A DNA stretch of 64,000 bases from Saprospiraceae bacterium (GTDB taxonomy: Bacteria > Bacteroidota > Bacteroidia > Chitinophagales > Saprospiraceae): assembly GCA_020628855.1 (NCBI GenBank), contig JAHDEL010000004.1:1-64000 (forward strand), written 5' to 3'. A model generated the notes under the pieces. It searched no databases. It saw nothing but the letters and a program-made list of their open reading frames with translations, and was not told the DNA's origin. The translations under genes and the position numbers were made by a program. Below, piece by piece: positions 1,980 through 11,737 of the stretch. Positions within the stretch are counted from its first letter, which is position 1. Every line of letters begins with the position of its first letter.

Positions 1980-2804
1980 TTAGAATTTGCTTTCTAATAA
2001 GCGTTGCATAGCAGATTGCAATCTGAGAGCTGATGTTCTTGCTGCTTGAGCAAAGTCAGGTTTTGAAGAGGAAAAGATGATTCCTCTTGAACTATTAACC
2101 AAAAGACCTACATCTGCATTTGCTCCATGGTTAAATACCTTTTCCAGATCTCCTCCTTGGGCTCCAACACCAGGCACTAGCAAAAAATGATTAGGAATGG
2201 TTTTCCTTATTTCAGATAAATATTCAGGCTTTGTGGCTCCTACAACATACATGATTTGATCTTCGGTTCCCCAAGACTGAGTTCTCTCAAGTACTTGATT
2301 GTATAGCGGAATCCCTTCAGTATCTTCAATCATCTGAAAATCCTTACTACCCTTGTTAGAGGTTAATGCCAGGATAATTGTCCACTTCTCTTCAAAACTG
2401 AGGAAAGGCTTTAACGAATCTTCTCCCATATAGGGTGCAACTGTAATCGCATCACACTGCGCTTCCTCAAAAAATGCTTTTGCATACTGAAGACTAGTGT
2501 TGCCTATGTCACCACGTTTTGCATCGGCAATAATGAGATGTGTACTAGGGATATAGTTTACTGTAGCTTGGAAAGCTTCCCAACCTTTAACCCCGAGGCT
2601 TTCGTAAAATGCTGTATTGATTTTGTAGGCTACGCAAAGATCTTTTGTATGATCAATGATATGCTTATTGAAGGTTAGTACTGGGTTGTCAGATGACAAA
2701 ACACTTGAAGGCAATCTGGATATATCAGAATCAAGACCAACACAAAGAAAAGAGCGCTTAGACAAGATTTGTTCAGCTAGCCAAGCTTTGTTCTTTACTA
2801 TCAT
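1980..2804 (-). CDS. pyrF: Orotidine 5'-phosphate decarboxylase
   Basis: A 274-residue TIM-barrel enzyme that decarboxylates orotidine monophosphate to UMP, the last step of de novo pyrimidine synthesis, in the cytosol. The catalytic D-x-K-x-x-D signature is in DAKRGDIGNT (Asp94, Lys96, Asp99). CVGLDSD near residue 21 and the phosphate-binding GVGAQGGD loop near 215-222 also fit. The length and motif spacing match the longer type 2 PyrF family rather than the 230-residue E. coli type. The ATG overlaps the end of the NifU-domain gene by 4 bases, so the two are probably co-translated. Confidence 0.95.
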   Translation of the reverse strand: MIVKNKAWLAEQILSKRSFLCVGLDSDISRLPSSVLSSDNPVLTFNKHIIDHTKDLCVAYKINTAFYESLGVKGWEAFQATVNYIPSTHLIIADAKRGDIGNTSLQYAKAFFEEAQCDAITVAPYMGEDSLKPFLSFEEKWTIILALTSNKGSKDFQMIEDTEGIPLYNQVLERTQSWGTEDQIMYVVGATKPEYLSEIRKTIPNHFLLVPGVGAQGGDLEKVFNHGANADVGLLVNSSRGIIFSSSKPDFAQAARTSALRLQSAMQRLLESKF

Positions 2805-3061
2805 GCACCTACACCATTGACTGCAACAACATGGGTGACTTGCGGTACCCTCTGCTTAATAGTCTGCTCCACACCAGCTCGCATTGTCATGGCAGACATT
2901 GAACATGATTCACAGTTTCCTAACCACTTAATTTTCACCGTATTATCATCATCTATATCTACAACTTCAATATTCCCTCCATCAACTGCAAGGTGAGGTC
3001 GAAGCTCATTGAGTGCTTCATCAATTAATTGGATGAGTTCTTGTTTTTTTGCTGTAGACAT
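2801..3061 (-). CDS. NifU-domain Fe-S cluster scaffold/carrier
   Basis: An 86-residue protein that is essentially one NifU C-terminal domain, with the cluster-binding CxxC pair in CESCSM (Cys50, Cys53) after the typical HLAVDGGNIEVVDI stretch. Such proteins bind a labile [4Fe-4S] cluster across a dimer and hand it to apo-enzymes. It is preceded by its own strong promoter and sits just downstream of an Mrp-type ATPase gene, another Fe-S carrier. It overlaps pyrF by 4 bases, although PyrF itself needs no cluster. Confidence 0.93.
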   Translation of the reverse strand: MSTAKKQELIQLIDEALNELRPHLAVDGGNIEVVDIDDDNTVKIKWLGNCESCSMSAMTMRAGVEQTIKQRVPQVTHVVAVNGVGA

Positions 3062-3066
3062 TGGTA

Positions 3067-3096
3067 CAAAGATAAGTGTATTCAGACTAATAACAA
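3067..3096 (-). promoter_or_regulatory. Consensus Bacteroidota promoter for nifU-pyrF
   Basis: The minus strand reads TTG (3094-3096), 19 bases, TATCTTTG (3067-3074), a full match to the Bacteroidota primary sigma consensus TTG-N19-TAnnTTTG. The -7 element ends 5 bases before the ATG, so transcription should begin at or next to the start codon. It also means nifU-pyrF can be expressed independently of the upstream mrp gene. Confidence 0.75.
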
Positions 3097-3108
3097 GTTA
3101 GACTTTAT

Positions 3109-4191
3109 CTAGGTGACTTTGACTATACTAGATGCGTCTTTGGTATTCTTTCTTATGTTCAAGGCTTGGATAAATTGCGTCGTCATACTGTCAAAGTAGC
3201 TATAGACTATCTGTGCTTTATCAAGTGTAATAGGTTTACCATTATCACCTGCTTCTCTAACACCTTCCACTAAAGGGATGTTCCCTAACAGTGGAGTTTG
3301 CCCCATTTTTGCTAATTCTTCCCCACCACCTTGACCAAAGAGATAATATTTATTCTCTGGTAGCTCTTTAGGAGTAAACCACGACATATTTTCTACAACA
3401 CCTAATACCGGAACATTCACATTTGGTAATAGAAACATATTCATCGCTTTCAAAGCATCTGCAACTGCAACTTGTTGCGGTGTGGTCACGATTATCGCCC
3501 CTGTTATTGGTAATGTCTGGACCATGGTTAACTGGATATCACCAGTCCCTGGGGGTAAGTCAATGATGAGAAAATCCAGCTCTGGCCAAATAGTATCATA
3601 GACAAACTGTTTGATGATACCTCCAAGCCTTGGGCCTCTTAACACTACAGCTTGTTCCTCTTCGAGCAAGTATCCTAATGATATGGTATGTAGCCCATAT
3701 TGTTCAATAGGTACAATCTTAGGCTTATCAGCTACCTTCTTTATCTGAGGTCTCTTCCCTCTCAGACCAAGCATAGTTGGCATAGAAGGACCATACAAAT
3801 CAGCATCCATAAGTCCCACCTTAAATCCTCTATCCTTGAGGCAAAGTGCTAGATTTGCTGACATTGTAGACTTTCCTACTCCTCCTTTCCCTGAAGCAAC
3901 TGCAATGATATTGGTAATTTGCGGCAAAGGAGTTGAAGGCGCTTGCTGCGCTTTCTTAAAGGAGATTAGCACCTGAGCTTCAGGGTATTTTGCTTGTATT
4001 TTTTGCTCAGCCTCAGCCAATAATACCATCTTCAGATTTTCTTCTGAGGGATGGAGAACCATGGCAAAAGAGACCTTATTGTCGCGGACTTGGTAGTCCA
4101 TCATTTTTCCACTATCTACAATATTCTTTCCTGTATTTGGATTGAGTATCGTTCGTAAAATATCTAGAATCGTATTATTATCTAATGCCAT
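3109..4191 (-). CDS. Mrp/NBP35-family Fe-S carrier ATPase
   Basis: A 360-residue P-loop ATPase of the Mrp/ApbC family. Residues 1-85 are a DUF59 (MIP18-like) domain. The deviant Walker A is GKGGVGKST at 101-109, followed by MDADLYGPS and LIIDLPPGTGD, all diagnostic of the family. These proteins carry and transfer Fe-S clusters in an ATP-dependent way. The CPxC pair that normally bridges the cluster after VENMS is absent: the segment reads NMSWFTPKELPENKYY, and there is no CxxC anywhere, so cluster binding must differ or depend on a partner. The NifU-domain gene next door is an obvious candidate partner. It lies 79 bases downstream of the ABC cluster on the same strand. Confidence 0.92.
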   Translation of the reverse strand: MALDNNTILDILRTILNPNTGKNIVDSGKMMDYQVRDNKVSFAMVLHPSEENLKMVLLAEAEQKIQAKYPEAQVLISFKKAQQAPSTPLPQITNIIAVASGKGGVGKSTMSANLALCLKDRGFKVGLMDADLYGPSMPTMLGLRGKRPQIKKVADKPKIVPIEQYGLHTISLGYLLEEEQAVVLRGPRLGGIIKQFVYDTIWPELDFLIIDLPPGTGDIQLTMVQTLPITGAIIVTTPQQVAVADALKAMNMFLLPNVNVPVLGVVENMSWFTPKELPENKYYLFGQGGGEELAKMGQTPLLGNIPLVEGVREAGDNGKPITLDKAQIVYSYFDSMTTQFIQALNIRKNTKDASSIVKVT

Positions 4192-4270: not shown

Positions 4271-5077
4271 TTATCCCATATCACTCACTTCCATCATTGT
4301 ATCCTCTACCAAATGGACTAGTTCGGTATACTTCGGGTCTCTCTTTGTCTCTCGCGTCCTAATTAAAGGCAAATCTATTGGTATGTGTCTTACAAATTGA
4401 GATGGTGCTGACTTCATGATATAGATATCATCCGCTAAGTAAACTGCCTCAGCAATATCATGTGTAACAAAGATGACAGTGCTTTGGAATTTGTTCCAGA
4501 GATTAGAAAGCAATTCTTGCATTTGTAATCTAGTCCTAATGTCTAGGGCACCAAACGGTTCGTCCATTAATATGATTTCAGGATTAGCAATGATACTTCT
4601 CGCAATCGCAACCCTTTGTAATTGACCTCCTGATAGTGTTGGGTATTGAGCATACTTCCATTCATGGCCTTCAAGACCAACTAGTCGAATAAGTTCTCTT
4701 GCCTTCTCTTCTCTTTCTAGCTTAGGGACACCTTTATACTTCAGAGCCAAAGCAACATTCTCAAGAACAGTCAGCCATGGCAAAGAAGAATATTGTTGAA
4801 AAACCATACTCACACGATTATCCTCTGTTACAGCTTTGCCATTAATCTTGACAACTCCCTCAGTTGGCTTCTGGAGTCCTGCAATGTAACGGAGCAAGGT
4901 AGATTTTCCACAACCAGACATCCCTAGTATTACAATAAACTGCCCTTGGTCAGGTTTGTCTTCTATTAAAAACTCTAAGTCTTTAATAATCCAATTCTGA
5001 CCGCCATCATAACTCTGGCATACCCTATTGAGTTCAATAATATTCTTTCGATCTGCCTTGTCAGTAAATAGACTCAT
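4271..5077 (-). CDS. ABC transporter ATP-binding protein (NitT/TauT type)
   Basis: A 268-residue nucleotide-binding subunit. Walker A is GMSGCGKST (52-60), the Q-loop is in VFQQYSSLPW, the signature is LSGGQ at 148-152, Walker B is IILMDE near 168-173, and the switch His is in VIFVTHDIAEAVYLADD. The sequence pattern is that of the SsuB/TauB/NrtD group, which powers uptake of nitrate, sulfonates, taurine or related small anions with NMT1-like binding proteins. It overlaps the permease gene by 4 bases (ATGA), so it is translationally coupled to it. The substrate cannot be told from the sequence. Confidence 0.92.
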   Translation of the reverse strand: MSLFTDKADRKNIIELNRVCQSYDGGQNWIIKDLEFLIEDKPDQGQFIVILGMSGCGKSTLLRYIAGLQKPTEGVVKINGKAVTEDNRVSMVFQQYSSLPWLTVLENVALALKYKGVPKLEREEKARELIRLVGLEGHEWKYAQYPTLSGGQLQRVAIARSIIANPEIILMDEPFGALDIRTRLQMQELLSNLWNKFQSTVIFVTHDIAEAVYLADDIYIMKSAPSQFVRHIPIDLPLIRTRETKRDPKYTELVHLVEDTMMEVSDMG

Positions 5078-6234
5078 AGTGTTTTGGCCGTAGCTGGTTT
5101 TTTATAGAGTAGCGGTTCTACATACTTTCTCAATTTGAAAAAGATGATAGCTAAGAATATTGAGTGCACTACCCAACAGGTATCTTCAAAGAGGTACGAA
5201 ATGAGATTAATTCCACCAAGTATCCCTAACAGTTCGTCTAAGGCTAAAAGCACATAGATTCCCAGCCCTATCCACACAGCAGCCTGTAAGAAATAGTCAA
5301 TAATAAGATCAACCATTGTAGGTGCCTTTATTTCAGAGCTGTATTGATCTTTGACTTGGTATTTATGCGGAAAAAACTTCTTGTCTAGGTAAAGAAATAC
5401 TCTATCCTGTATTAGTCCTATCAAAATAAATATGATCAATATGGCGAACACTTTATCCGGCCTTCCCATCCTTTTCCCTGCCTTATAAATGAGTGATCCT
5501 AGCCCACCTTGGTCTCCAATACCTTCTGCTACAATGATATAAGTCCAACTAATTGCCGTTAATACTCTCACATCGTCAGACAATTTAGAAAGTACAGCCG
5601 GAATATAAACAGACCGAATTGTTTGCCAGGTTGAAGCACCTAATGTATAGACTGTTTTGACGTAGACATCCCTTACTTCTTTAATCCGTTGAATAATGAC
5701 CGGCACCAAGTATATCATGATACCAAATGCTAAGAAATTCACTTTGAGTGGTGTCCCGATACCATAGGCAGAGACAAAGATTCCTGTGACTGCTGTCAAG
5801 GGGATGAATCGATAAGCATCTATTTGGGATTGAAAGGATGCATTGAACAATGGAAATAAACCAATGATAAATGCGAGCGGTAATGACCAAAGGAGTGCTT
5901 TGATATAACCCCCAATGTTAAATCCAAGAGATAGACAAAGATTCTTAAAGAGATTGCCATCTTTATACAAGTCCTTGTAAGCACAAATGACGGAGTTATT
6001 TCGTTTAGCTACCTGATTCGTGATTACTTTGCCAAACTCATCCTCGTAAGTCTGCTCTACCATGATGGTATCACAAGCGCTAAATGGCTTTGGCAGTATA
6101 CCATTTGGCACCACAGGATCACTACCTGAAGACAAAGCCATCCAGACTCCCAATATAAACAGGAAGCCTAAGAGACCAAATATCAGTCTTTGTTGCTGAG
6201 AGACTGGACCTCTCAATTTAAACATCCAAGACAT
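5074..6234 (-). CDS. ABC transporter permease, enlarged
   Basis: A 386-residue inner-membrane permease of the BPD_transp_1 (SsuC/TauC-like) type. The EAA-loop that contacts the ATPase is in YTLGASTWQTIRSVYIPAVL. Two features are unusual. Between the first and second membrane segments there is a hydrophilic insert of about 60 residues (about 37-95, with Cys54 and Cys84), predicted on the periplasmic side. After the core (about 110-300) there is a further membrane pair at about 313-370. Typical SsuC/TauC permeases are 250-290 residues. It overlaps the ATPase gene and lies 2 bases after the binding-protein gene, so all three should be one unit. Confidence 0.88.
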   Translation of the reverse strand: MSWMFKLRGPVSQQQRLIFGLLGFLFILGVWMALSSGSDPVVPNGILPKPFSACDTIMVEQTYEDEFGKVITNQVAKRNNSVICAYKDLYKDGNLFKNLCLSLGFNIGGYIKALLWSLPLAFIIGLFPLFNASFQSQIDAYRFIPLTAVTGIFVSAYGIGTPLKVNFLAFGIMIYLVPVIIQRIKEVRDVYVKTVYTLGASTWQTIRSVYIPAVLSKLSDDVRVLTAISWTYIIVAEGIGDQGGLGSLIYKAGKRMGRPDKVFAILIIFILIGLIQDRVFLYLDKKFFPHKYQVKDQYSSEIKAPTMVDLIIDYFLQAAVWIGLGIYVLLALDELLGILGGINLISYLFEDTCWVVHSIFLAIIFFKLRKYVEPLLYKKPATAKTL

Positions 6235-6236
6235 AT

Positions 6237-7895
6237 CTATCCTGGGATAAGTTGAAAGTCTGTCCTTCTGTTTTTAGCTTTACAATCCGCTGTTGCATTG
6301 GTCTCACAACCTTTGACTGGTTTGTTTGGACCATTACCAACGATGACGAATCGATTAGGATCCATGCTGTAAGTTGTCTTTAAGTAGTCTGCAACAGACT
6401 GAGCTCTCTTTTGAGAAAGTGAAATATTATTCTGCAATGAACCTACATTATCTGTATTTCCTTCGATCCTCACTTTCATTCCAGCAAAAGACTTCGCTAC
6501 ATCAGCAAATTGTAAGTCAATAATTGTCTTCGCATTTTCAGTTAACTGAAATTGTCCTGTATTAAAGTTGATACTCACAGGTTTTGTAGCCACAGGTGCA
6601 GCTTTCCTATCTGCAGCACTCGGTGCTGAGAATGTCTTATCTTTTTCAGGGTTATATTTTGTGCCAAGGAGTGTTGCTTGCGCCGCTTGTACAGCACCTG
6701 TATAAATCACGGATCTCCAAGATGGTGCTTGCTTCTCTGCATCTCCAGTTTTGACAAAATTCTTTGCCATCTTAGTATAAAGGTCATTTCCTTTCTGTCC
6801 TTTGTAGTTCGAATCAAGCCCAAAGAAGTTGACATTATCTCCTTGCGATGTCCAATGCACCACTGACATCATACCTTTAGCATCATCCACTGAAACTCCA
6901 TTAAGTTCTGCTAAATATTTTGCCGCTTTATCCTGATTAGCAGGCATCCTCATTTCTGCTACACCTTTCATCCATCCTTCATAGAACTTATGAATCATAT
7001 TTCGCTTCGAATTGATAACCTCTTGCTTTGCCATCATGATATCAGCAATCACGTGTGTCTGCTCCATAGTAGTCAATAATATCTTAGAACCTGCAACATC
7101 TCTAGTAGCAAGTATATCATCTGGACTCCATACAACAGCTGCATCGACATCATCACTTCTGAAAAGCTCAGCAGCTTTTAAGTTATCTGTTGTTTTGATC
7201 ACTTCTACATCAGAATAATCCAGACCAGCCGCTTCCAGTGATGTGATAAGTAAGGTCTGTGCTGGAGAAGGAACAGCAACAACAACTTTCTTTCCTTTCA
7301 AGTCATTAATCGTGTTGATGCCTCTCTTCACTATGATAGCATCACCACCTCTTGACCAGTCGACTTGCATGAATGCACGAGGACTCACAGCATTAATCTC
7401 ATCTGGTGCAGTATAGAGTGGGAATGCATCTGCAGTTTGCACAATGACATCGTATTCTCCTGCCAACCAAGCATCAAGTGCATTAATCAGGTCGTTTTCT
7501 AATTTGAAGTCTACTTTAAAGCCATAGTCTTTAAAGAAACGCGATCTTTCATTAGCAGCAGCTCCTTCATTGAAATAGAGACCTGGAGCATATCCTCCCC
7601 AACTGACTAATTGCACTTTTAATGTATTATCCTCATCTGAACCTCCCGAAGAATTCGCATTGTTCTTCTTGGAGTTATTCTTTCCAAGAATCGTCGTTTT
7701 CTTCCCAGAAGAGGTTGTTCCTTCGGATGTACCAGAATTTCTATCAGTTTGCTCAGTTCTCTCACCTCCTTGTGCATCGCTGACTAAGTCACCTAATGCG
7801 GTATTTCCAACTAACCATCTGAATCCAAAAAAGATAGCGGCTAGAATGAGGAGTGTTATTAATAATTTCGAGAAAGTGGTCAATCGCCTTGCCAT
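6237..7895 (-). CDS. Membrane-anchored solute-binding protein fused to OmpA domain
   Basis: A 552-residue fusion. An N-terminal membrane anchor (about 10-30) has no lipobox and no clear cleavage site. Residues 31-90 are a Ser/Gly/Lys/Asn-rich linker. Residues 92-430 form an NMT1/PhnD-like periplasmic binding protein (VQLVSWGGYAPG at the start, then YDVIVQTADAF and AAVVWSPDD). Residues 440-552 form an OmpA-like peptidoglycan-binding domain with the diaminopimelate-contacting Asp and Arg in GNTDNVGS and LSQKRAQSVADYL. It would thus be tethered to the inner membrane and to the cell wall at once. This is incompatible with a freely diffusing receptor and suggests a fixed sensor or scaffold for the permease encoded 2 bases downstream. 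Confidence 0.9.
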   Translation of the reverse strand: MARRLTTFSKLLITLLILAAIFFGFRWLVGNTALGDLVSDAQGGERTEQTDRNSGTSEGTTSSGKKTTILGKNNSKKNNANSSGGSDEDNTLKVQLVSWGGYAPGLYFNEGAAANERSRFFKDYGFKVDFKLENDLINALDAWLAGEYDVIVQTADAFPLYTAPDEINAVSPRAFMQVDWSRGGDAIIVKRGINTINDLKGKKVVVAVPSPAQTLLITSLEAAGLDYSDVEVIKTTDNLKAAELFRSDDVDAAVVWSPDDILATRDVAGSKILLTTMEQTHVIADIMMAKQEVINSKRNMIHKFYEGWMKGVAEMRMPANQDKAAKYLAELNGVSVDDAKGMMSVVHWTSQGDNVNFFGLDSNYKGQKGNDLYTKMAKNFVKTGDAEKQAPSWRSVIYTGAVQAAQATLLGTKYNPEKDKTFSAPSAADRKAAPVATKPVSINFNTGQFQLTENAKTIIDLQFADVAKSFAGMKVRIEGNTDNVGSLQNNISLSQKRAQSVADYLKTTYSMDPNRFVIVGNGPNKPVKGCETNATADCKAKNRRTDFQLIPG

Positions 7896-7929
7896 GTATT
7901 AATTTGTTTAGAATATTACGTATTAAATA

Positions 7930-8943
7930 TTAGTCTTCAAAGAAGTCATCATAATCATTAGACTTCACTTTTACTTTTTGCTTCGATGTTGAAAGGTCTA
8001 AAATATCTTCGTTGTTCACTTCATCAAGAATATCTTGCTTAGCTTCTCCAAGGAGCATGGAAGTACTTTCTTTCTCCCATTGTTCAAGCATTTTCATGCC
8101 TTTTTCTTCAAAGATGCCGTTCTGAATATCAATTGACTTCATGAAGTCCTCTGACATATCCATAAATTTTTCCATCTCTCCAACCTTCAAAGAGACATCA
8201 TCTGCAATCACTTCCATTGCTTGGTCAAACATAGCCTTCTTATCGGGATCACCTTTGATAATATTCATGGCTGATTTCATTGCAGAATGGCTTGCTAAGA
8301 TTGCTTTTTGCTCTTGTTCTTTAATCCTTACTTGATCTTCTGTATCCTCAATCAAGATTGCTGAATTATCACGCATTTTTGTCAGTACTCTTTGCATGAT
8401 TTCCATCTTCTTCAAAAGGTCCGAAAGCTTAACATTAGATTCTTTCAATCTTCCAGCTTTTCTTGTCTTCAAGATGAGTACCTTTTCATCTTTAGTGGTT
8501 TTGGCTTGACTTGCCATTTCCATATTTGACTTGATCTGCTGGGTATTTTGATGGATGAGTTCCATCAATTTATGTTTCTGTCCTCTCAATTTGCCAATCT
8601 GAATATTCATCTTCTTCAGATTATACTTCAAATCATCAAGATAACCTTTGATGATACTCATTGGGTCTATTTTGATAAATAGACCTGTAATCCATCTCAT
8701 TAATGACTTATAGAGATACCCAACTAATTTTCGGGTCTTTCCATCTAGAGCCATGAAAATGATTAATCCCAATGTTAGGAGACCAACAATAGCACCTAAT
8801 GTTGTCTGCAAAAAACCGTAAATAACTAATCCAAAAGACATCACTAGATAGGTTACCAAAGCAGCGCTTCCTGCAAGAAAAAGAGCTCCAACAACACCTT
8901 CTGGTTTCGACCAAAATGATTTTCCGGTAATAGTTTGCGACAT
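7930..8943 (-). CDS. Two-TM coiled-coil membrane protein, PspA-like topology
   Basis: 337 residues from the ATG at 8943, chosen because it begins MSQTITGKSFW just before the first membrane segment; an upstream ATG at 8997 would add 18 residues of unlikely sequence. Two transmembrane helices lie at about 16-42 and 46-64. About 230 residues of almost uninterrupted charged helix or coiled coil follow (about 95-300), ending in an acidic tail rich in Asp and Glu. The long helical part recalls PspA/IM30-type membrane-stress proteins, but I cannot show homology. It lies 34 bases upstream of the SBP-OmpA gene and is the fourth member of the cluster. Function unknown. Confidence 0.75.
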   Translation of the reverse strand: MSQTITGKSFWSKPEGVVGALFLAGSAALVTYLVMSFGLVIYGFLQTTLGAIVGLLTLGLIIFMALDGKTRKLVGYLYKSLMRWITGLFIKIDPMSIIKGYLDDLKYNLKKMNIQIGKLRGQKHKLMELIHQNTQQIKSNMEMASQAKTTKDEKVLILKTRKAGRLKESNVKLSDLLKKMEIMQRVLTKMRDNSAILIEDTEDQVRIKEQEQKAILASHSAMKSAMNIIKGDPDKKAMFDQAMEVIADDVSLKVGEMEKFMDMSEDFMKSIDIQNGIFEEKGMKMLEQWEKESTSMLLGEAKQDILDEVNNEDILDLSTSKQKVKVKSNDYDDFFED

Positions 8944-8995
8944 AAAGTTTATCGTGAGATGTGTAAAATTACTAATTATAACACGAACTCTGAGC

Positions 8996-9059
8996 AATTC
9001 ATTTCATGAACTGGTTGTCTCTGTCTAAGTACTGCTTGTGTTCATCGATAAAATGAATT
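8996..9059 (-). other. Long intergenic stem-loop inside the ABC cluster
   Basis: AATTCATTT (8996-9004) pairs with AAATGAATT (9051-9059), and ATGAAC (9006-9011) with GTTCAT (9040-9045). That gives 15 bp of helix with a small internal loop and a 28-base apical loop. It fills most of the gap between the two coiled-coil genes and includes most of the upstream gene's stop codon. No U-tract follows, so it is not a standard terminator. It could set the expression ratio by mRNA processing or attenuation. Confidence 0.45.
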
Positions 9060-9738
9060 AGCTCAACCGCTGCATTATTGCGAGGTCTGCTTTTATTTGA
9101 TCGACCACAATGTGATAGGCATTATAAAAGCCTGACTTTGTAGCATCAACCTTTGCTTGAGCTTGATTGGTTTCTTGCTTGAGAGCCGCAAGCTTTTCTT
9201 CTAACTCTTGAATTTGAGCATTTAGCTCCTCAATACGTTTTTTTCTATCCTCGATTCCCTTTAAATAGCCTTGCTGATTCTCTTCTCTTTGCTTGACTTT
9301 GGCTTGTTGTTGGTTATCAAAAGCAACTCGAAACTTTTGCTCTTCATCAGAAAGCACAGCAATGTAATGCTCAGCAGATTTGATCAACTGAGTTGGCTCA
9401 GCACCCATCGTTTTCGCCATAGCAAATGCAGACTTATACCTTGTATCTTCATCCATTGCAACTGCATCAAGATTTTGCAAGGCTTGTTTGAACTCCAAAT
9501 AATCAAAACCTTCAAGATTATTTGCCTCTATTGCTCCAAGAAGTTTATTTACAAATCGCTCGCTTGGTTGACCACCAGTAGGCTTAGGTATCTCCGCAGC
9601 GGGTGCTGACTTCTTACTATTATGATCTTGTGCAGAAGAGGACTTAGTCTTACTTTGATTGTCCTTAGGTCCACTTTGCTTACCTTCTTTCCCATCCTCC
9701 TCTTCTATGATAAAAAGTCCTTTCAGCTTCTTTAGCAT
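9058..9738 (-). CDS. Unknown coiled-coil protein of the ABC cluster
   Basis: A 226-residue protein with no signal peptide or membrane segment, so probably cytosolic. Residues 1-55 are a charged, low-complexity, likely disordered tail. About 58-135 is a helical domain with no family I recognise. About 140-200 is a strong coiled coil (RKKRIEELNAQIQELEEKL pattern), followed by a short C-terminal helix. It is the first gene of the five-gene run 9738 to 4271. An exact TAnnTTTG element lies 16 bases before its ATG. The pairing with a second coiled-coil protein suggests the two interact. Function unknown. Confidence 0.75.
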   Translation of the reverse strand: MLKKLKGLFIIEEEDGKEGKQSGPKDNQSKTKSSSAQDHNSKKSAPAAEIPKPTGGQPSERFVNKLLGAIEANNLEGFDYLEFKQALQNLDAVAMDEDTRYKSAFAMAKTMGAEPTQLIKSAEHYIAVLSDEEQKFRVAFDNQQQAKVKQREENQQGYLKGIEDRKKRIEELNAQIQELEEKLAALKQETNQAQAKVDATKSGFYNAYHIVVDQIKADLAIMQRLS

Positions 9739-9777: not shown

Positions 9778-10236
9778 TTATGAGTAGTCGGTAGGGAAGC
9801 TATCTAGCTCTCTATACTCACCTTTGTCATCTATGGTAAACATCTTGTTCTCTATCCCGTTTGTTACCCAAACATATTTGAACGGAACAGCATTCTGGTA
9901 TCTCGCTGTTTGGTTGAATACCAATTGATTCAATTTTACATCCCATGACTTACACTCGACCAACATATAAGGAGTAACTCCTTCAACAAAAATGGCAATA
10001 TCAACACGGTCTTTATTCTGCAAAGCCAGTTGTTTTTCAACAGTAATCGAAGATATTCGAATCGATTGCTCTTTTACGAGATACTGGATACACAGTTGTC
10101 TGACAACTTCTTCGGGTTGTAAGGTCAACCATTGTTTACGAATGGAACAAAAGAGTTTCTTTTCCGCATTTGATCCAACAATCTTTAAATGGGACTTGTA
10201 TTGTAAAAGCTGCGGAATCCAAACTGAGTTAGACAT
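9778..10236 (-). CDS. HsdR N-terminal-domain-like nuclease-fold protein
   Basis: A 152-residue protein resembling the stand-alone HSDR_N_2 family (N-terminal domain of type I restriction subunit R). A PD-(D/E)XK-like set is visible: Glu67 in VEKQL, Asp79 in RVDIAIF, and the E-x-K of VECKSW at 94-96. Members are common single-domain proteins in Bacteroidota and are not linked to HsdM/HsdS; none is found here. A nuclease or DNA-binding role is plausible but not proven for such short forms. The gene overlaps the 502-residue gene upstream by 8 bases, indicating a two-gene operon. Confidence 0.75.
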   Translation of the reverse strand: MSNSVWIPQLLQYKSHLKIVGSNAEKKLFCSIRKQWLTLQPEEVVRQLCIQYLVKEQSIRISSITVEKQLALQNKDRVDIAIFVEGVTPYMLVECKSWDVKLNQLVFNQTARYQNAVPFKYVWVTNGIENKMFTIDDKGEYRELDSFPTDYS

Positions 10237-11737
10237 GATGAAGAGGGATATCTATACTATTTACTCCGAGCTGTTCAATATACCGAGAAAATGCAACCTG
10301 ACTGATCAGTGTATCCAATCTGGCTGGTTGCAGTATTCGCTCATGACAAAGCAGACTAGTAACTCTTTCGGTATCTAGAAATACTTCTGTAATGGTGTGA
10401 GCATAAGTGCTTTGTATCTCAACTTCTTGATATCCCTGATATTGCAGCTGTCTAGCATAAATATCAATGAGGCTTGGATGTAAACACAGTAGCACATATT
10501 GGTTTTTATCTATGAATATTTTTGGTTTAATATCTAAGGCTTCAAATCGCATGGCAAGACTTTCTGCATAGTACAAAGAAGACTTATAATCTCCTGGAGT
10601 TTTAAAATCAGATCTAGTGAGTTGTATATCAGGAATCTGTTCTGAATATTCGAATAGCAGCTTTTGTTGGCCGCTTTGCAGTAGACACACTGAATGATTA
10701 TCAAGCTCCGGATTTATCTCGAAAACAATAGTAAGGGAATCAACCTCTTGGTTAGAATGAGATTTAAAATATGCCCTCGCAAGCGTATCAATATTTTCAT
10801 TAATAACAGATGACCAATCATAGTCATCTCCAATATGACAAACTAATTCTTCAATCACAGATTCTACAGTCAGAGAACACTGAGTGACTATTTCTTTCCA
10901 CCGTTTTAAATGCTTATTCTGCAAAACGTTTTGGAGAGTTCTTACGAATGTCAGCTGCCTACTCACCTCTTGAGAAAGCTGGTCGAGATTCATAGGATTT
11001 TTTGCTTCATTATCTTTAAGCATCTTCAATTTCTCCAATTCAATTTTGAAGAGATCAAATCTTTCGAATAAACTTTGACACTGCAGATTTGCATTTCGAC
11101 CTGCTCTTACCCATGAAGCTAACCTTTGACGCACTCTTTGTTGCATCCACTCTGCTTCTACCAATCGAACTTCCATTTGGCCATTTATTGCATAATCCAG
11201 CAAGTCTTGATACAATGCTTGGAGTAATGTGAGAATATGACTTGTATTAGAAGCATAATCATCCCAGTCAAAAGCAAGAGATTCAAATAGCTGATACAAT
11301 GATTGGTAGTCATTGCCTGACTTATATTGGTTTTGGAGAAGTGTTATTTTCTCTAAGAGCTGTGTAGCACCCTCAATAAAGTCTGTCTGATGAGTCAACT
11401 GGATTGAGGCTAATTTTGGGTATGTGCCACTAGTTCTAGAAACTAAATCAAAATATGATCTAGAAAAGTGTCGTCTGCTCAGAGCCAGACTTTGGCGAAA
11501 CTGGGCATTATTATTTGGTAAGAGAGAATGATTGCGATCATTGTCAATAAGCACAAAAGCCTGTTCGGATAAATATCGCTTATATGCTTCTTGCTGATCT
11601 GTATTACTGAACTCGATCACCAAATTCTGAGTCGAATGTAGAAAGAGATGATAGGTAAGACTTTCAAAACTTAAGGCTCTGGACAGAAATGCAAGCCGAG
11701 TTGGCAAAGCGCTTACCTGATCTATGGTAGAATTCAC
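10229..11737 (-). CDS. Unknown 502-residue protein
   Basis: I do not recognise this family. The protein has no signal peptide or membrane helix. It seems mostly alpha-helical in the first 330 residues (leucine- and glutamine-rich helices), then a mixed alpha/beta C-terminal part from about 335. The start is GTG at 11737, since no ATG precedes the conserved-looking N-terminus; the TAnnTTTG element 4 bases upstream supports it. It overlaps the HsdR-N-like gene by 8 bases, so the two proteins probably act together, perhaps on nucleic acid. That function is inferred only from the neighbour. Confidence 0.7.
   Translation of the reverse strand: MNSTIDQVSALPTRLAFLSRALSFESLTYHLFLHSTQNLVIEFSNTDQQEAYKRYLSEQAFVLIDNDRNHSLLPNNNAQFRQSLALSRRHFSRSYFDLVSRTSGTYPKLASIQLTHQTDFIEGATQLLEKITLLQNQYKSGNDYQSLYQLFESLAFDWDDYASNTSHILTLLQALYQDLLDYAINGQMEVRLVEAEWMQQRVRQRLASWVRAGRNANLQCQSLFERFDLFKIELEKLKMLKDNEAKNPMNLDQLSQEVSRQLTFVRTLQNVLQNKHLKRWKEIVTQCSLTVESVIEELVCHIGDDYDWSSVINENIDTLARAYFKSHSNQEVDSLTIVFEINPELDNHSVCLLQSGQQKLLFEYSEQIPDIQLTRSDFKTPGDYKSSLYYAESLAMRFEALDIKPKIFIDKNQYVLLCLHPSLIDIYARQLQYQGYQEVEIQSTYAHTITEVFLDTERVTSLLCHERILQPARLDTLISQVAFSRYIEQLGVNSIDIPLHHV

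Follow-up and report, generated by a model that had tools for sequence, protein, structure and literature searches.

Gene cluster and transporter components

The window analysed here is the whole stretch of 64,000 nucleotides from contig JAHDEL010000004.1 of a Saprospiraceae bacterium. Between positions 4271 and 9738, five open reading frames (ORFs) lie on the minus strand, which agrees with an earlier sequence-only reading that had described a five-gene system on a single strand with overlaps or short gaps. The features are as follows:

9058..9738, minus strand: CC1, a cytosolic coiled-coil protein of 226 aa, an ORF without a transmembrane (TM) segment
7930..8943, minus strand: TM2, 337 aa, with two TM helices, an amphipathic helix, a PspA/IM30-like hairpin and a tail peptide
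6237..7895, minus strand: SBP-OmpA receptor, 552 aa, with an anchor, a linker, a solute-binding (SBP) domain of NitT/TauT (SsuA/TauA) type and an OmpA domain
5074..6234, minus strand: ABC permease, 386 aa (BPD_transp_1, 5e-14)
4271..5077, minus strand: ABC ATPase, 268 aa (ABC_tran, 2e-30), TauB/SaoA-like

The ATPase and permease ORFs overlap by 4 bp (5074-5077), while spacings of 2 bp, 34 bp and 114 bp separate permease from receptor, receptor from TM2 and TM2 from CC1, respectively. A TTG start for TM2 at 8997 is probably wrong, because both the homologues and the sequence favour the ATG at 8943. A promoter scan returned matches at chance level with a sigma-70 consensus, which is unsuitable for Bacteroidota. 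The cluster of the window contains no AAA+ gene, and none interrupts the other clusters that were read.

Upstream of the cluster and on the same strand lie a small HSDR_N-like protein (window 9778-10236; PF13588, 3.5e-26) and a 502-aa protein without an assigned family (10229-11737); counterparts of the former, together with proteins close in length to the latter, stand beside the cluster in L024 and the congeners L031-L033. Directly downstream (2801-4191) are genes for a NifU-like protein, recognised by sequence, and an Mrp/NUBPL-type iron-sulfur carrier, and the Mrp gene adjoins the cluster within the genus (L031-L033), not in other genera. One subclade has a further co-directional gene after the ABC ATPase (L100:6964-7989, L101:11291-12322, L104:11309-12331 and L119:11288-12319), whose product of about 340 aa resembles, by eye, the MeaB/ArgK GTPase.

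The receptor combines, in a single protein, an NMT1/THI5-like domain (residues 120-315, 1.1e-11) and an OmpA domain (444-534, 1.6e-16), preceded by one hydrophobic helix at about residues 4-34 and a low-complexity linker. The solved structures closest to its solute-binding domain are alkanesulfonate- and taurine-binding proteins, and the domain carries invariant pocket-like motifs including WGGY, TxDAFP, QxDWSRGGDA and DAAVVWSPDD. Within the OmpA domain, D482 and R497, the predicted diaminopimelate site with a spacing of 15, are invariant in 11 sequences, and 99 of 102 fusions retain the peptidoglycan-binding motif (TD...LSxxRA). Together with the conserved anchor helix, this motif supports the prediction that the receptor is attached to the inner membrane at one end and to the wall at the other. 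In this respect the receptor resembles MotB/PomB, Pal and other OmpA wall tethers, which share the membrane anchor and the OmpA domain with its TD...LSxxRA motif, but it differs from them in holding a solute-binding domain between the two and in adjoining ABC transporter genes. A single-sequence search of 296 genomes at 1e-30, a strict cut-off applied to a draw with few Saprospirales, found nothing beyond the genome itself, and profile searches recovered the relatives that it had missed. Restriction of the fusion to this genome, named in the sequence-only reading as a finding that would speak against it, can thus be set aside, as the fusion is widespread.

The permease is of SsuC/TauC/SaoP type, with a periplasmic loop and, by hydropathy, a C-terminal extension bearing extra hydrophobic helices. 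Its description as enlarged applies to Saprospiraceae, where lengths are mostly 347-453 aa, and not to other families (256-265 aa). The ATPase retains Walker A, the LSGGQ signature, the Walker B DEP motif and the H-loop. The gene set of a NitT/TauT importer is therefore complete, comprising an SBP, a permease and an ATPase of that family, and the cluster matches TauABC and SsuABC in receptor fold family, permease type and ATPase type. It departs from them in its OmpA-fused, membrane-anchored receptor, and all matches to named-equivalog models fall below the curated cut-offs.

These components raise the alternative that the cluster is an ordinary NitT/TauT importer for a sulfonate-, taurine- or urea-like substrate, in which OmpA merely parks the receptor and the PspA-like protein does no more than shield the membrane near a transporter that is leaky or abundant. 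The intact ATPase, the kinship of the SBP to alkanesulfonate- and taurine-binding proteins, the many invariant pocket-like motifs and the joint presence or absence of permease and receptor in the six genomes checked all agree with it. Because the receptor keeps its conserved pocket-like motifs and the ATPase its own motifs, the cluster may well transport a solute, and the earlier preference for envelope sensing or tethering rather than nutrient uptake is not demonstrated. The tethering of the receptor at both ends speaks against such an importer and, with the comparative evidence on the anchor and on TM2 described below, makes the ordinary-importer account somewhat unlikely.

Probable relationship of TM2 to PspA/IM30

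Proteins of the PspA/ESCRT-III superfamily protect membranes in every domain of life. TM2 is probably a divergent member of this superfamily (PspA/IM30) with two TM helices in front, a homology that is strongly supported and that bears out, for this protein, the PspA-like build noticed in the sequence-only reading. As a single sequence, TM2 exceeds the cut-off of no Pfam family. PF04012 (PspA_IM30) nonetheless matches 14 of 28 TM2 homologues (best 6e-6), and because the best scores, about 29-33 bits, fall below the gathering cut-off of 33.9, TM2 is called a divergent superfamily member instead of a canonical PspA. When the genome was searched as a whole with PF04012, the sole match was a paralogue of TM2. 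In the reverse direction, a TM2 profile (A5) run against 395 genomes of the phylum found matches outside its own family in five genomes of family f13 (5e-10 to 7e-9), four of which sit where PF04012, scoring above its cut-off, also identifies a PspA gene; the fifth genome was absent from the draw searched with PF04012.

Profile-profile and structural comparisons place the similarity in the same part of the protein. Alignment with hhalign joins TM2 and PspA over 92 ungapped columns and sets Asp93-Pro94 of TM2 on Asp24-Pro25 of PspA. Its probability is 59.7%, whereas 40 heptad-block-shuffled controls reached no more than 13.5% and the reversed alignment 1.1%. An AF2 model of moderate confidence (pLDDT 69.9) contains helices at 94-150 and 153-225; Foldseek searches with it rank Vipp1 first to third at weak E-values (0.034-0.10), and VIA-align superposes residues 93-229 on Vipp1 24-160 (137 residues at 1.9 A). 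Judged by fold only, the question would stay undecided, since BAR/F-BAR hairpins receive higher Z scores than Vipp1 in VIA-align. The main argument for homology is the agreement of register among sequence searches, profile-profile alignment and model, and the resulting identification is graded as probable.

It might instead be proposed that TM2 is an unrelated long-helix protein, BAR-like or a generic coiled coil, serving as a scaffold for the ABC complex. In addition to the equal or higher Z scores of BAR-type hairpins, this proposal gains from the tendency of coiled coils to yield spurious profile matches and from a sequence search of the PDB with the TM2 profile, which retrieved no PspA chain, only chance matches to ABCC4. 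It is considered quite improbable, as reciprocal family-level searches pick out PspA genes genome-wide, three methods converge on one register that includes the Asp-Pro with which helix 1 begins, and the block-shuffled and reversed controls fail.

Other features of TM2 accord with membership of the PspA superfamily. Its hydrophobic segments lie, by hydropathy, within residues 16-70, and between them and the Asp-Pro pair, residues 68-90 are predicted to form an amphipathic basic helix in the place of helix 0 of PspA, which is membrane-binding. The hydrophobic moment of this helix is 0.28-0.37, compared with 0.27 for a sequence that is taken here to be the N-terminus of E. coli PspA. TM2 thus shares with PspA/Vipp1 the helical hairpin, the Asp-Pro opening helix 1 and the preceding amphipathic helix, and differs from them in its two N-terminal TM helices, its conserved C-terminal tail peptide and its sub-threshold Pfam scores. 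All but one of 74 Saprospirales proteins end in NQYDxFFE or a near variant; in distant homologues the ending takes a looser form (Y/F..L/F-L/F-D/K/N). Regulators of the PspF, PspBC or LiaFSR type were not recognised beside the CC1-TM2 loci displayed, whose neighbours were read by eye and in part searched for domains. Snf7 (PF03357) is without a match in the genome, as was TM2 in a plasmid search.

CC1 lacks a TM segment by hydropathy. Its AF2 model (mean pLDDT 84.6) consists of a small helical domain at about residues 60-110 and, after it, a single helix about 110 residues long, and comparison with the PDB gave no convincing match. The idea that CC1 is a second PspA/Snf7 protein was rejected on hhalign probabilities of 20-24% and the lack of a fold match, so that CC1 is assigned to no family.

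Gene order across Bacteroidia and second TM2 copies

Conservation of gene order was assessed in 80 named Saprospirales/Bacteroidota loci that had been retrieved solely through their SBP domain; these loci are kin and do not represent independent observations. Where the upstream side is uncut, 73 of 74 loci have TM2 immediately before the receptor. CC1 adjoins TM2 on its upstream side in 63 of 73 Saprospirales loci, and the permease follows the receptor in 66 of 70 Saprospirales/Bacteroidota loci; the full five-gene set occurs in 52 loci (64 are uncut on both sides). With a wider TM2 profile, the CC1-TM2 pair was also found in eight other families of the class, where CC1 precedes TM2 in all 14 loci; 11 of these continue with an SBP-OmpA fusion and an ABC ATPase, and a permease is recognised in 10. 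Maintenance across so many families places the five-gene arrangement far beyond chance, and the coiled-coil genes, whose rarity beside the transporter had been named as a possible objection, do stand next to it in most genomes that have it. Among 41 relatives, 17 contain both TM2 and receptor, 8 TM2 only, 1 the receptor only and 15 neither (Fisher 1e-4, uncorrected for kinship).

Outside Saprospiraceae, two SBP types occupy the receptor. The type found in the window is present in L215 and L216, and a second type, barely matched by NMT1 models, in L155-L157, L217-L221 and L224; a plasmid search with the latter matched only OmpA domains. Two types of solute-binding domain therefore ride on one chassis, which stays constant while the ectodomain is exchanged. 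In family f10 (L154, L222 and L223), the receptor slot is filled by a TM protein without an SBP or OmpA domain, and neither permease nor ATPase follows. The N-terminal anchors of these proteins nonetheless take ranks 1-3 among 504 hydrophobic N-termini compared with the receptor anchor (scores 93, 92 and 69; next 49). This similarity despite the ectodomain swap makes the receptor anchor look like a conserved machine part and not a disposable signal peptide. Retention of the anchor without permease or ATPase, as well as the greater constancy of TM2 before the receptor than of the permease after it, counts against an ordinary importer. The slot proteins themselves (L154:6830-7897, L222:8848-9933 and L223:6229-7275) carry a DIGSGNTK motif, and their ectodomain has a weak match to exopolyphosphatase, which has an actin-like ATPase fold (TIGR03706, E 0.007).

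The transporter is less constant than the pair. Permease and ATPase genes are unlinked from the receptor in G311 and G330, in several loci they are unlinked or not seen beside it, and CC1-TM2 pairs occur without any transporter, for example in L043, L160 and L162. It follows that physical coupling to the transporter is not obligatory, and the same observations point to the PspA-like pair as the more fundamental unit and to the transporter as an addition.

Most Saprospiraceae carry a second TM2. In the genome of the window and in several relatives, this copy lies in the arrangement yidC-gpsA-(CC1')-TM2'-(apbE), where CC1' stands between gpsA and TM2' in relatives and is missing in the genus itself. 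The paralogue of the genome (G000:C47:25495-26481; L019:5996-6985), in the order yidC-gpsA-TM2'-apbE, is about 57% identical to TM2. In E. coli, depletion or loss of function of YidC is a classical inducer of PspA, so the adjacency of TM2' to yidC fits a PspA-like role for the family. Since no canonical PspA above the PF04012 cut-off was found in 26 relatives, the cluster also hints at a replacement for that protein in Saprospiraceae. Elsewhere, L158:7256-8164 encodes a strongly diverged, third type of TM2 beside CC1, downstream of an SbcCD-like gene pair, and in L046 and L048 the CC1-TM2 pair likewise follows sbcDC-like genes.

The second copies lend weight to the view that CC1-TM2 is an independent envelope-maintenance module, as it appears near yidC, and that its linkage to the transporter reflects co-regulation with no shared complex. 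Transporter-free pairs in several genomes, the differing neighbours of the two paralogous loci per genome and the unlinked permease in two genomes are all in keeping with this view, whereas the survival of the gene order in several other families with two SBP types and the conservation of the receptor anchor helix are not, and the view is judged improbable.

Described operons and a proposed mechanism

Operons combining a TM-bearing PspA/Snf7 protein with an AAA+ ATPase, an ABC ATPase, a permease and a PBPB-OmpA protein have been mentioned by Ravi et al. (2024, mSystems, PMC11237479), with OGG56892.1 as an example, and were proposed there to link membrane remodelling with solute transport. According to section 15 of the same article, some Bacteroidetes PspA-Snf7 neighbourhoods contain a third coiled-coil protein. 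As far as these passages describe them, the operons share with the present cluster the TM-bearing PspA/Snf7 protein, ABC ATPase, permease and SBP-OmpA protein; the cluster differs in having no AAA+ protein and a conserved CC1 instead, two TM helices before the hairpin and, in Saprospiraceae, an SBP of NitT/TauT type. On the strength of these accounts, the cluster appears to be a variant of a kind already described, and its designation as an undescribed system was too strong. What is new here is the AAA-less form, its conservation throughout the class, the constant partnership with CC1, the peptide that closes TM2, an anchor preserved under an exchangeable ectodomain and the yidC-linked TM2 paralogue. 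Literature searches found no experimental study of the cluster or its kind. A relation to TelA/XpaC-type "toxic anion resistance" neighbourhoods was rejected for want of such domain matches.

Among the readings weighed, the favoured one, in which evenly balanced confidence is placed, pairs a PspA/ESCRT-III-like module anchored in the membrane with an ABC complex tethered to peptidoglycan. In its favour stand the PspA kinship of TM2, the constant TM2-receptor linkage, the unchanging chassis under different ectodomains, the yidC-linked paralogue and the retained OmpA and tail motifs; weighing against it are the weak Foldseek E-value, the higher Z scores of BAR/F-BAR hairpins, the sub-threshold Pfam scores, the missing PDB sequence match and the loci where pair and transporter are apart. 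TM2 would be held in the inner membrane by its two TM helices, with the amphipathic helix and hairpin facing the cytoplasm; its assembly there would stabilise or remodel the membrane. The receptor would extend from the inner membrane, through its linker and solute-binding domain, to the wall, docking onto the permease and ATPase and, by its anchor, onto TM2. CC1, by binding TM2, probably at its conserved tail, would promote nucleation or assembly. As a whole, the complex would then behave as an importer responsive to the state of the envelope, in which the status of the receptor and ABC components (a putative ligand, wall distance or ATP turnover) would set the place and time of the PspA-like polymer, with signalling presumed to run in that direction.

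How PspA/ESCRT-III proteins are controlled without an AAA+ ATPase is treated as an open question by Ravi et al. (PMC11237479), in the passage concerned. To this question the cluster offers a testable answer, in the form of a self-anchored PspA-like protein, a coiled-coil partner, a tail peptide and a wall-fixed, ATP-driven complex. In a further elaboration, regarded as rather unlikely, TM2 would form a transmembrane ESCRT-III-like polymer gated or driven by the wall-referenced ABC transporter, whose ATPase would stand in for the AAA+ ATPase of Vps4 type. MIT domains bind the tails of ESCRT-III proteins, and CC1 would read the TM2 tail in an MIT-like manner.
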